Origin: a virus
IMG/VR virus record: IMGVR_UViG_3300049043_000070
Span: 122,294-186,293 of that record
Reading direction: 5' to 3' (one strand)
DNA: 64,000 bases
Shown one piece after another: positions 32,688 to 37,540 of the stretch. The notes under the pieces are model-generated. The model saw only the letters and a list, made by a program, of their open reading frames with translations. It was not told the origin of the DNA and did not search any database. Positions within the stretch are counted from its first letter, which is position 1. Every line of letters starts with the position of its first letter. Both the position numbers and the translations under genes were made by a program.

Positions 32688-32902
32688 TGATCAATCTCCA
32701 TCAACGTTATAATCATTATCTTCACACCGACAAAAAACATGATCGGGTGAATGAAAATATTATAGGTTATGGGTGGACTGATGATGGTTCAGAATTGACT
32801 GGGTATTATGTCTTGACAGAACATCACAAGTTGTTCTATAATCTTCAAGAACAATTTCAATATATGGAAGGGTGGCCGAGTGGTTTAAGGCAACAGTCTT
32901 GA
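32687..32902 (+). CDS. hypothetical ORF running into tRNA-Ser
   Basis: It is coupled to the zinc-ribbon gene. MINLHQRYNHYLHTDKKHDR then NIIGYGWTDDGSELTGYYVL looks like real protein. The last codons (MEGWPSGLRQQS) are the tRNA-Ser gene translated, and the tRNA promoter lies within the ORF. Either the C-terminus overlaps the tRNA or a stop has been lost by an indel. Confidence 0.45.
   Translation: MINLHQRYNHYLHTDKKHDRVNENIIGYGWTDDGSELTGYYVLTEHHKLFYNLQEQFQYMEGWPSGLRQQS
32813..32842 (+). promoter_or_regulatory. consensus sigma70 promoter for tRNA-Ser(TGA)
   Basis: TTGACA (32813), 18 bases, TATAAT (32837), both perfect. The expected start is about 8-20 bases before the mature tRNA. Confidence 0.8.
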
Positions 32903-32949
32903 AAACTGTCGTGTGACGAGCACCGTGGGTTCGAATCCCACCCCTTCCG
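32866..32949 (+). tRNA. tRNA-Ser(TGA)
   Basis: Acceptor GGAAGGG / CCCTTCC; loop CTTGAAA in an ACAGT / ACTGT stem; long variable arm. Confidence 0.94.
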
Positions 32950-32993
32950 TTCCCTATTATTAGGGATGACATGTCGTTCAAATAATAAAAACT

Positions 32994-33875
32994 ATGTTAA
33001 TTCGTTCATTTATTGCTGCTGGTGTTGCTGTTGCTTCTATTGCTGCTCCTGCCATGGCACAAGTCACCAGTGTTTCACAACTGAAAGACGTTCAACCTAC
33101 TGAGTGGTCTTATCAGGCAATCTCAAATCTGGTTTCACGTTATGGTTGCGTTGCTGGTTATCCTAATGGCACTTTCCAGACCGGTCGCACCGCCACCCGT
33201 GCTGAACTTGCTGCTCTCACCAATGCTTGCCTTGATAACATCACTACCTTCTACAGTGAAGCAGATGCTCGTCTTGCCTCCGCTCTTCGTGCTGAGTTCT
33301 CCCGTGAGATTGCTGCTACGAACAAGCGTGTGACTGCTCTGGAAGTTGCTGCTGCTCAAAAGGCACAAGGCGTTGGTAACTATGTTGGTGTTGGCGTTCT
33401 TCTCAATCAGCAAGGCACTGCTGGTAATGGGTTCAGTGCTCAGCGTACCATCTCTGGTGCTACCGTTCAGGCACGTTATGCTGTGAAGAACTTCACCAAC
33501 CTGAATGCTGTTTCGGTTCGTCCTTATGCTAGCTTCGTAGGTACTCCTGCTGGTCAACTGGGTTCTGGTGGTGGCGCTCTAGTGTCTTATGATTGGAGCA
33601 TTTCTCGTGCCAAGTCTGGTGTGAGCCGTGCTAACGTCTACACTGGCGTTGGTTATCAGATCCCCTTCGTGAACAACACTGCTGCTAACTATCAGTCTGC
33701 TGTTGGTAATCGTGGTCAAGTTGTTCTTGCCATTGGCGTTGAAGGTCGTATCACCAACTCTCTGGTTGGTTTTGCTGATCTGAAGTTCCCTACGACCAAT
33801 GCCGCTAACAGCTACGGTGCTACTAACGGGACTTATTCTCCTGTGTTCACCACTGGACTTGGTTTCAAGTTCTGA
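32994..33875 (+). CDS. SLH-domain outer-membrane porin (cyanobacterial iron-uptake porin type)
   Basis: The 293 aa product has a signal peptide (MLIRSFIAAGVAVASIAAPA, cleaved after AMA). An SLH domain follows (SVSQLKDVQPTEWSYQAISN, CVAGYPNGTFQTGRTATRAE) that in cyanobacteria anchors the outer membrane to peptidoglycan. A coiled linker (LRAEFSREIAATNKRVTALE) and a beta-barrel ending in GLGFKF complete the layout of cyanobacterial Som/iron-uptake porins. At 293 aa it is shorter than host porins, which are usually 450-550 aa, so the barrel may be small or truncated. It directly precedes the Fe transporter genes. The codons look GC-richer than the neighbours, suggesting host origin. Confidence 0.85.
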   Translation: MLIRSFIAAGVAVASIAAPAMAQVTSVSQLKDVQPTEWSYQAISNLVSRYGCVAGYPNGTFQTGRTATRAELAALTNACLDNITTFYSEADARLASALRAEFSREIAATNKRVTALEVAAAQKAQGVGNYVGVGVLLNQQGTAGNGFSAQRTISGATVQARYAVKNFTNLNAVSVRPYASFVGTPAGQLGSGGGALVSYDWSISRAKSGVSRANVYTGVGYQIPFVNNTAANYQSAVGNRGQVVLAIGVEGRITNSLVGFADLKFPTTNAANSYGATNGTYSPVFTTGLGFKF

Positions 33876-33885
33876 TATAATGGGG

Positions 33886-33900
33886 AGAAATCCCCTAATA
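33886..33900 (+). other. intercistronic hairpin between porin and permease genes
   Basis: GGGGA-GAAA-TCCCC forms a 5 bp stem with a GNRA tetraloop, 11 bases after the porin stop. No T run follows, so it is more likely an mRNA-stability or partial-termination element. Confidence 0.5.
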
Positions 33901-33902
33901 TT

Positions 33903-35211
33903 ATGATCTGGATTGATTCTATTTTTAACACTGGTCTTCTTATTGTGATGACCAGTGTTATTTCTGTTTTTATAGGAACTTTCACTGCTCTGTTTGCATG
34001 GAAAAGTAATCAACGATGGGCATACTTTCTCCCTCTGACGTAACACTTGCAGTTCCTCCTTGGTTGTTTACTTTTTACTTTAGTGAAACTTTTGGTATTG
34101 TAGATCCTTGGATTGGCGCTGCTATTAGCTTGGGAGTTTGTTGTAGTGTATATCCCCATAGTATTATCTCAAGCAGTTTAGCAAACCGAGCATATAAAGA
34201 TTGGGAAATGCTTCAGGTTATCAAAGGAAAGAACCTGAAGAGCTTAGCAATGGCAGTATATCCATCACTCAAAATTAGTTTACTTCCGAGCATCGCTATC
34301 GTTGCTGCTGAATGCATTACTGATTTCGGTGTATCAAACTTCTATGGATTGAATACCGTCACCATGCTCACGTATAATTTGTGGACGAGCACATGGAACT
34401 TTGGTTCTTTGGTGTGGGGTATATTCATTCTGTTGGCGATGGGTATATTGATTAGTCGTTTGGAAACGAATACGATTGTGAGTTTGACAAGTTCAAACAC
34501 CACACGAAAATCAAATGTTTATGGTATCATTGCTGTGCTGCCCACATTATCATTGTTATTATTTGGCATGGTAAAATCTATTGAATGGATTGTAATGCAG
34601 GGTAGTATTGATGTTGGTGATTTACTTTTTGAAGTTGGTAACACAATGCTCTTGGTTGGTATTGTAGTAGCAACTTGTATACTTGTTCTGATTTCTTATC
34701 TTGGTGGATTTGCTAAATCATTTACAAGGAGATTAGGATTGGCTTCGTATGCCATTCCTGGCACTGTAGTTGGTTCAGCATTTGTCTACCTATTGGGCGG
34801 CAAACTACCACTGATTATTCTTTTGACTTCAGCAATTACTTTCCGATACTTTGGTTTGATAATTCATTCGGTCTCAGTATCTGAAAAGGAAGTAAGAAAT
34901 ACTTTGAAGTAATTGATTTTTATACTCGTTCTAGATGGAAACAGTTAAATCAAAAGTTTAAACTGATCCTCTCTAGCATCATGATTGGAATGAGTTTGAT
35001 TATCTTAGATGTTTTAAGAGAGCTACCAATCTCAATGGTTCTTCAACCTGTAGAGTTTCAAACTCTCGCTATGAGGATGAGTTATATTGCCAAGACAGAA
35101 AATCCCACTCTTCTTGGATTTCATAGTATAATACTTTTACTGTTGGGAATATTTTTTAGTTTAGTCGTTGTGTGGATTACCTATGATAAAAGTAAAAAAT
35201 CTCATCATTGA
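33903..35211 (+). CDS. futB: Fe(III) ABC transporter permease, FutB/FbpB-like (frameshifted)
   Basis: About 435 aa after rejoining at about 34045 and 34912. It has about ten hydrophobic helices and two copies of the binding-protein-dependent permease module. The first coupling region is YKDWEMLQVIKGKNLKSLA followed by ECITDFGVSNFYGLNTVTM. The second is DVLRELPISMVLQPVEFQTL followed by MRMSYIAKTENP. This DFG...FG and ELP...LRP-type pattern is that of FbpB/FutB iron permeases. Host FutB is usually over 500 aa, so this is a compact version. The next gene begins within its 3' end. Confidence 0.85.
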
Positions 35212-36140
35212 GAAACCAGATTTACAAATTAAAGACCTTGAAATAGATGAACACACAGTCATCATCGGACCCAGTGGTGCTGGTAAAACAACGTTCCTTC
35301 GTTGTGTTGCTGGTCTTGAGAACTATACTGGGGAGATTTACATTGATGGTGAACTGAAAACCGAAGTCGGATTAAATCGTGGTGTGAGTATGGCATGGCA
35401 GGATGGTAGGTTGTTGCCAAACTCTTCTGTTCGTGCTAATATTGAGTTGGGTGGCGATCCTGATTTAATTGAACACATGTGCAATCTATTCAAGATCGAC
35501 CATCTTCTTGATAAGATGCCTCACGAACTTAGTGGGGGTGAAGCACAACGAATAAATATCATACGAGCAATTTGTTCACCCGCAAAGGTGGTCTTGTTGG
35601 ATGAACCGATGCAGGGCATTGACCCTATCATTGTTCGTAAAACATTGAAACAGTTGCTCCATGAGCTGAAAGAAATATGATAAGATAGCATTGTTAGTCA
35701 CTCATGAACTTTATCAAGTTTATGGATTGTTTGATCGTGCTATCGTTATTAAACATGGTGAAACGATTGCACACGACGAACTTCGTTCGTTGTATGACAA
35801 TCCTTTATCACCTTGGATGGCTAACTTCTTTGGTGCATATACTGTATTGAATAAAGAAGACCTTAAAAGTTTTGAACACCATTCTAACGAAGATCCATGT
35901 ATGATCCGACCAGAATGGTTTAAAATCAAAATGCCTCCTTTTAAGAAACCTTTGGAGTTCAATGCTACTGTCACTGGCGTACATTGGGATGGTCCCAGTA
36001 CAAAAGTTTCCTTAGTGCTTGACGGCACAAACAAACCACTCGCTGTGGAGTTATACGCAGATTACGAAATCAAAAAAGGAGACAGAGTTTATGTCAATTT
36101 TAAGAAAAGCAGTCGCCCTACTTGGGTGCTTAACCGTTAG
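35183..36140 (+). CDS. futC: Fe(III) ABC transporter ATPase, FutC-like (frameshifted)
   Basis: About 318 aa. Walker A IIGPSGAGKTTFLRC is near residue 33, the ABC signature HELSGGEAQRINIIR near 115, Walker B KVVLLDEPMQGID near 135, and H-loop LLVTHEL near 170. A one-base shift at about 35675 joins the halves. The C-terminal extension (CMIRPEWFKIKM...KKGDRVYVNF) is the regulatory beta-domain of Fbp/Pot-type ATPases. ATG 35183 lies 29 bases inside the permease gene. It energises iron import. Confidence 0.87.
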
Positions 36141-37138
36141 CATCGGAGCAGTTCTACCTGCTGCCGCTGCCCCTAAGAAAACCGTTACCGTGATTACTGA
36201 CCGTAGCGATTTTCACCTAAAGCCTATCTTTGAGGCTTTTGAAGAAGCAACAGGTGTTGATGTTAAAGCAGTATTTGTGGATCAAGGATCTCTTCCTGCT
36301 CGTCTAGCATCTGGAGCAGACAAAGCAGATCTATTCATCACTACAGATCTTCCTACGATTGCTACAGCAAAAGAACAAGGATATACTCAACCAATTCTTT
36401 CTGGAAAAATCAGAACTCTTGATAGAGGATTTGTAGATCCACAAAGTCATTATGCTGCTATCAGTTTCCGTGGCAGAACGATTGTTTATAATCCTAAAAA
36501 AGTAGATGTAAAAACTTTGAGGGGTTATGATGATCTTGCTGATCCAGAATACAAAGGTCGTGTATGCATTCGTCCTTTCACTCATGTTTACAATGTAACT
36601 ATGCTGAGTGAAATGATCGTTGATCGTGGTGAAGCATATGCTCGTAACTGGGTGAATGGTGTGAAGAATAATCTTGCTGTGAAACCATCTGGTAATGATC
36701 GCAACCAAGCAAAACTGAGTTGCAAATGGAATTTGTGATCTTGCTTTGATGAACACTTATTACTATGGTCTACTTCTTTCAAATAAAGCTCAAAGACCTA
36801 TCGCTAATGCTACAGAACTCTTCTTCCCCAATCAGAGTGGGAAGGGAACTTATACGCTTTACAGTGGCGTAGCAATGGCAAAAACTGCCAAACACACCAA
36901 AGAAGCAATCCAATTGGTCGATTACCTGTTGGGTAATGTCGGACAAAATCATATCGCTCAAACTACATTTGAATATCCTGTAAATCCCAACATTAAACTT
37001 TCAGTTATTGCTGAAGGTTTTGGTGAGGGTCAACCTGGCATCAAAGATGGCAAAGCAAAATTTGCACGTATGAACCCCGCTAGAGTTGCTAAATATCGTG
37101 AGACCGCTGCTAAGATCTTGGCAGAGGCAAGCAAGTGA
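36091..37138 (+). CDS. futA: Fe(III)-binding periplasmic protein, FutA-like (frameshifted)
   Basis: About 348 aa. The signal peptide is MSILRKAVALLGCLTVSIGA... cleaved after AAAA. The mature start KKTVTVITDRSDFHLKPIF, then GSLPARLASGADKADLFITT and AISFRGRTIVYNPKKVD, follow FutA/FbpA proteins. After a frameshift near 36735 comes LALMNTYYYGLLLSN, where the tandem Tyr residues are the expected Fe(III) ligands. The end is YRETAAKILAEASK. It overlaps futC by 50 bp. A terminator follows, so the porin-futBCA set ends here. Confidence 0.9.
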
Positions 37139-37149
37139 TATAATGATCT

Positions 37150-37173
37150 GGGGGTTGACAAAACCCCCTTTTT
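37150..37173 (+). terminator. intrinsic terminator of the iron cassette
   Basis: The stem GGGGGTT / AACCCCC encloses GACAA and is followed by T5, 12 bases after the futA stop. Confidence 0.88.
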
Positions 37174-37183
37174 AACTTATGAT
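37155..37183 (+). promoter_or_regulatory. promoter overlapping the futA terminator
   Basis: TTGACA (37155) spans the hairpin loop; 17 bases on is TATGAT (37178). It would drive tRNA-Pro and the glutaredoxin gene. Confidence 0.7.
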
Positions 37184-37194
37184 GAAACTTATAA

Positions 37195-37266
37195 CGGGGC
37201 GTAAGTCAGCGGTAGACGGCTTGCTTTGGGAGCAAGAAGACACTGGTTCGATCCCAGTCGCCCCGA
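37195..37266 (+). tRNA. tRNA-Pro(TGG)
   Basis: Acceptor CGGGGCG / CGCCCCG; loop TTTGGGA in a CTTGC / GCAAG stem. Confidence 0.94.
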
Positions 37267-37294
37267 TCTTTCCTATATAATTTTTTAGGTGCCG

Positions 37295-37540
37295 ATGTCT
37301 TTTACCATCTACTCCAAAACAGGTTGTCCTTTCTGTGAGAAATGTATTGCTGTCATGGAACATGAAGGTTTCACACATGTAATTTATCAATTAGATAAAG
37401 ATTTTACCATTGATGAATTCTATGCTGAATTTGGCGAAGGATCCACATTTCCACAAATTACCTTGGATGGCATTCAACTTGGTGGATGTCAAGAAACTGT
37501 TAAATATTTACAAAAAAACAATGTCTGCTGCAATGTCTGA
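37295..37540 (+). CDS. glutaredoxin 1
   Basis: The 81 aa thioredoxin-fold protein starts MSFTIYSKTGCPFCEKCIAV with the active-site CPFC. The cis-Pro is in STFPQITLDG and a GG loop in QLGGCQETVKYL. It probably recycles ribonucleotide reductase; a second glutaredoxin is at 49.8 kb. ATG 37295 is chosen over the GTG two codons upstream. The end overlaps the next gene by 20 bp. Confidence 0.9.
   Translation: MSFTIYSKTGCPFCEKCIAVMEHEGFTHVIYQLDKDFTIDEFYAEFGEGSTFPQITLDGIQLGGCQETVKYLQKNNVCCNV

Follow-up and report, generated by a model that had tools for sequence, protein, structure and literature searches.

A putative compact ferric iron importer operon in an S-PM2-like cyanophage and two further T4-like phage contigs

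Introduction

Ferric ATP-binding cassette (ABC) importers of the FbpABC/FutABC type combine an iron-binding protein with a Tyr/Tyr-Tyr pattern, a two-module permease and an ATPase carrying all of its motifs. Here we describe a phage operon with the same three components, found in IMG/VR record IMGVR_UViG_3300049043_000070 (G000; 186,293 bases), the last 64,000 nucleotides of which (bases 122294–186293) form the stretch analysed, hereafter the window. In contrast to the cellular systems, the phage genes are ordered permease, ATPase, binding protein (B-C-A), the permease is shorter, and the binding protein falls in a clade of its own and has no counterpart of the FutA1 His-Tyr pair. We consider it likely that window positions 33903–37138 are a phage operon, belonging to a phage lineage and inserted at this site, for a complete, compact importer of this type that feeds iron to the infected cell.

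Phages are known to shift the iron-uptake transcripts of their hosts up or down (PMC12753301). An ocean exoproteome lists iron-complex transporters encoded by viruses (PMC8889253), and the annotation of one soil viral contig includes an ABC transporter for ferric iron (PMC8240259), but the passages of these two papers that deal with such transporters describe neither a complete, conserved B-C-A operon, nor a lytic cyanophage, nor a phage clade. Across the open-access literature, a scope that leaves subscription papers and preprints outside, we found no described phage FutBCA operon and no complete, conserved phage-encoded ferric importer. What is new here is a compact ferric importer lineage common to phages; ferric ABC importers themselves are already known.

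Results and discussion

A putative importer operon inside a cyanophage genome

The contig belongs to an S-PM2-like, T4-type cyanophage. It has matches to S-PM2 proteins along its length (40–94% identity), with orthologues of psbA, nrdA/nrdB, gp43 and gp23, and carries 19 tRNA genes. Four same-strand genes, for an SLH-barrel protein, a permease, an ATPase and a binding protein, stand between tRNA-Ser and tRNA-Pro (Table 1). The tRNA-Pro and NrdC genes on the 3' side correspond to the tRNA-Pro/NrdC1 pair of S-PM2, where both are present and Fut genes are absent at that site. An earlier note on this DNA, made from the letters alone, had reported four consecutive genes on one strand, with the transporter genes overlapping by 28–50 bp and a single terminator after them; we measured overlaps of 29 and 50 nucleotides (nt), and a terminator-like hairpin with a T-run follows the last gene. 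The motifs it had listed were likewise all located, namely Walker A (GPSGAGKTT), the signature LSGGE and Walker B (LLDEP) in the ATPase, which also has the THE motif, and NTYYYG in the binding protein. As far as sequence can tell, then, all parts of a three-part ferric ABC importer are present within a genuine S-PM2-like cyanophage, as that note had proposed.

Relatives of the operon, first found with an ATPase query, occur in two of the 2.9 million IMG/VR contigs: a 75-kb contig (3300005077_000572, here L164) and a 23-kb contig (3300046804_001189, here L165). Phage-only alignments of the ATPase, the binding protein and the permease each return just these two, while IMG/VR scans by the binding protein alone, by an alignment mixed with PDB sequences, or by the permease alone gave no match. 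Among 50,697 deposited phages the binding protein is not encoded, except for one match at 28% identity. In both sister contigs the permease, ATPase and binding protein follow one another in the window order, with recurring overlaps and zero frameshifts; the intact permeases have 436 and 434 amino acids (aa), the binding proteins about 341 and 343 aa, and the ATPases 318 aa, with a short extension in L165. Identities to the window proteins, in L164 and L165 respectively, are 47 and 53% for the permease, 70 and 69% for the ATPase, and 63 and 58% for the binding protein. Because order, sizes and overlaps recur intact in both, the arrangement in the window is not a chance one.

Conservation is also seen at a finer scale. 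Walker A, the signature, Walker B and the H-loop of the ATPase are invariant across the three phages, and the 50-nt overlap, in which the end of the ATPase and the signal peptide of the binding protein are both encoded, is near-identical as DNA in these divergent phages. Substitutions per codon position (0.34, 0.20 and 0.59–0.65 for positions 1, 2 and 3) point to selection at the protein level. L164 and L165 also encode a T4-like terminase and tail sheath, and those S-PM2 core proteins that have matches in them do so at just ~24–46% identity; for the most part, the importer has thus diverged less than the core genes, a pattern that suggests exchange between phages. The earlier note had proposed looking for the same four-gene order in viral contigs; the futBCA order recurs in these two, and the SLH porin is beside the operon in neither.

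Table 1. Features at and around the putative importer operon (window positions).
Feature	Position	Strand	Remarks
tRNA-Ser(tga)	32865..32950	+	5' flank, in phage tRNA cluster
SLH-domain outer-membrane barrel gene, 293 aa	32994..33875	+	Intact; signal peptide, single SLH domain and long helix; barrel predicted to have 8 strands
Compact ferric ABC permease (futB-like), ~434 aa	33903..35211	+	Starts ATG 33903; read across two frameshifts near 34040 and 34900
Permease/ATPase overlap, 29 nt	35183..35211	+	Same two genes overlap in both sister phages
ABC ATPase (futC-like), ~318 aa	35183..36140	+	Read across one frameshift near 35680; Pfam ABC_tran E 2e-24
ATPase/binding-protein overlap, 50 nt	36091..36140	+	Shine-Dalgarno AGGAGA just upstream
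Putative secreted Fe(III)-binding protein (futA/fbpA-like), ~348 aa	36091..37138	+	Read across one frameshift near 36720; PDB matches, Tyr triad
Terminator-like hairpin	37150..37168	+	GGGGGTTGACAAAACCCCC, then TTTTT
tRNA-Pro(tgg)	37195..37266	+	3' flank; then NrdC-type glutaredoxin 37289-37540

Iron as the predicted substrate

A profile built from the three phage binding proteins and searched against PDB matches 34 sequences, of which the top 28 are all iron binders, and ferric binders (7li0, FutA1 2pt1, FbpA 1y4t and 1q35) also head the phmmer search; in the profile search PotD, ThiB and a binder of 2-aminoethylphosphonate come behind them, with E values from 1e-6 to 1e-3. The tyrosine of HVYN and the two aligned tyrosines of NTYYYG fall at chain positions 142, 198 and 199 of 1q35, the FbpA of Mannheimia haemolytica, and this triad is invariant in the three phage proteins; Tyr142, 198 and 199 serve as the iron ligands of 1q35. 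The Mannheimia protein (1q35/1si0/1si1) resembles the phage protein in these tyrosines and in an N-terminal motif, at 34% identity, whereas the C-terminal region of the phage proteins is extended and conserved (GQPGIK.G..K), and they form a separate clade. For the permease, a profile found one PDB match, 9j4r, an 'Iron ABC transporter permease', aligned across 404 of 435 positions (E 4e-8), and cellular FbpB-type permeases encoded beside iron binding proteins match it with E down to 1e-17. Iron is therefore the best-supported substrate, as judged by homology, and the phage binding protein sides with the binders of iron, not with those of other substrates, the outcome on which the earlier note had let its proposal depend.

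Points that weigh against a working iron importer in this phage concern the binding site, the protein family names, the state of the genes and their rarity. Where FutA1 has its His-Tyr ligand pair (RHY), the phage proteins read R-S/T-D-F-H and lack the pair, and for some parts the best partial NCBIfam names are those of 2-aminoethylphosphonate transporters (PhnS, PhnT, PhnU2), at low scores far below the cut-offs. As read from the raw sequence, all three transporter genes contain frameshifts, beside an intact SLH-barrel gene; these four frameshifts in 3.2 kb are somewhat above the contig mean (Poisson P ~0.16, not significant), and the window copy may truly be decaying. Finally, only three contigs in the whole collection carry the operon.

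The family names would fit an importer for another substrate, such as 2-aminoethylphosphonate, a polyamine or thiamine. We regard this as highly improbable, given that 28 iron binders outrank the binders of those three compounds, that the tyrosine triad is retained and that the sole PDB match of the permease is an iron permease.

With S-PM2 proteins as the yardstick, the whole contig shows 61 frameshifts in 94 kb (~0.65 per kb), including four in gp43, two each in gp23 and gp41, three each in nrdA and psbA, and one in the terminase gene. As such genes cannot all be dead, the breaks in the operon most likely arose as errors of sequencing or assembly, and a reading of them as operon decay was dropped once this count had shown the same load in essential genes. 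The four frameshifts could still be taken as signs that the operon in the window is decaying into a pseudogene, or that host DNA was wrongly joined to phage DNA in the assembly, a reading that we hold to be very unlikely: the operon is intact in two further phages, the cellular matches found are all at 39% identity or less, which leaves no known host contig to have been joined in, and sequence of the S-PM2 tRNA/NrdC type lies on both flanks. A host chimera had been named beforehand in the earlier note as what would overturn its proposal, and no sign of one was found. The G000 assembly is error-prone, so that any broken gene reported from it needs a contig-wide frameshift control.

A probable size-reduced phage lineage, apart from cyanobacterial FutA

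The phage permeases have 434–436 aa, as against 514–621 aa in cells, and share ~20% identity with the cellular proteins. The best permease in 398 Pseudomonadota genomes reached 63 bits, with open frames of 505 aa or more for the matches listed, and a search of nine bacterial genomes with the ATPase found general ABC ATPases only. At the cellular loci read around the best-matching iron binding proteins, the best of which reached 39% identity, the permease gene lies 3' of the binding-protein gene.

In the binding-protein tree the phage sequences form one clade (support 100/99), and a topology in which they group with FutA1, FutA2 and Trichodesmium FutA fails the approximately unbiased test (p 0.006); cyanobacterial FutA was represented there by Synechocystis and Trichodesmium, in place of marine picocyanobacteria such as Synechococcus. 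Since the phage protein does not group with cyanobacterial FutA, the FutABC label of the earlier note finds no support where it implies cyanobacterial ancestry. The branch nearest to the phage clade is a long one of unsure placement, from a gammaproteobacterial metagenome-assembled genome (L150); its iron binding protein (L150:4631-5965) shares a C-terminal GIKDGRPK region, and its permease is full size (546 aa). Sequence comparison thus indicates that the importer is not a recent acquisition from a cyanobacterial host and that its lineage is common to distant T4-like phages. We lean towards the broader view that it represents a phage-specific, size-reduced ferric ABC importer lineage, a three-gene module that moves among distant T4-like phages of different hosts and gives the infected cell virus-made iron uptake.

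The neighbouring SLH-barrel gene

The earlier note had placed the SLH-barrel gene, as a porin, in the same cassette, with iron moving through both membranes by way of the porin and FutBCA. The four genes are adjacent and co-directional, with 27 nt between porin and permease. The protein has an SLH domain (Pfam E 1.3e-9), and NCBIfam places its N-terminus (107 of 485 model positions) in por_somb (NF033921/Som), an 'iron uptake porin', at 97.8 bits against a cut-off of 100. In L165, too, the importer is followed by a gene, distinct from this one, whose product weakly matches a beta-barrel (L165:6801-7487; a 228-aa secreted protein, Pfam OMP_b-brl below cut-off). Even so, we find a single cassette quite unlikely. 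Homologues of the SLH-barrel gene are common in cyanophages, occurring in at least 146 IMG/VR stretches, and at none of the 80 related loci kept from these for the neighbourhood count were Fut genes found. The S-PM2 and S-CREM1 homologues ('putative S-layer protein', 'iron uptake porin') are ~75% identical to the window protein and have no Fut genes beside them, the S-PM2 gene sitting after tRNA-Gly, away from the Fut site. At three loci (L055, L059 and L070) the SLH-barrel gene, tRNA-Ser, tRNA-Pro and NrdC occur in that order around an empty Fut site, and we therefore see futBCA as an insertion next to a resident gene. The SLH-barrel gene is probably a neighbour of the operon rather than a member of it.

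The fold predicted for the protein is consistent with this. An AlphaFold model from 39 sequences, of modest confidence (mean pLDDT 58), shows, besides the SLH domain and a long helix, eight strands, as against ~16 in the large, pore-forming barrel of the Som type, and its Foldseek matches are OmpA, OmpW, Ail and OmpX. Eight-stranded barrels like OmpA and OmpX mostly lack a wide pore, which makes a role as iron channel doubtful; on this model an envelope or surface role seems more likely. The outer-membrane half of the proposed iron route is thus probably wrong.

Neighbouring genes and regulatory sites

An exact promoter-like TTGACA-18-TATAAT (32813–32842) precedes both tRNA-Ser(tga) and the SLH-barrel gene, and a second, near-consensus site (37155–37183) is ahead of tRNA-Pro. 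The best score in a Fur-box scan was 14 of 19, equal to the best in one shuffled 64-kb sequence, so nothing beyond chance was found. In the sister contigs, genes for IF-3, Hsp20 and ClpS stand in a row immediately before the importer of L164 (L164:5003-6731), and a tryptophan halogenase fragment with a row of 2-oxoglutarate (2OG)-Fe(II) oxygenase-like genes lies immediately upstream of that of L165 (L165:22-3423).

Possible role during infection

From these features we infer transport, its specificity for iron, its timing and a benefit in infection. The binding protein would be exported to the host periplasm and take up Fe(III) by its tyrosine triad, passing it to the two-module permease, which the ATPase would power; the infected cell could then continue to import iron while host genes are shut off. 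In the S-PM2-like cyanophage this capacity would have come with the insertion of the operon between the resident SLH-barrel gene and tRNA-Pro.

The earlier note had suggested a benefit to photosystem I. A search of the contig for psaA and psaB gave no match, so any such link would run only through the host. Alternatively, the main use of the iron might lie not in host photosynthesis but in virion parts (tail iron) or iron enzymes (2OG-Fe oxygenases, class I NrdB). The oxygenase-like genes beside the L165 operon and the presence of nrdA and nrdB in G000 and G001 would fit such a use, as would pelagiphage HTVC027P, which encodes a 2OG-Fe(II) oxygenase and increases the afuABC transcripts of its host (PMC12753301). 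The argument is, however, not specific, since cyanophages have such enzymes without the operon, and we think this use somewhat unlikely to be the main one.

Iron limits much of ocean photosynthesis, and the viruses that carry this operon probably, to judge by its genes, feed iron to the cells they infect. If the importer works, viruses would directly add iron-uptake capacity to infected cells, tying infection to the iron cycle, and the compact permease would show how small an iron importer can become.

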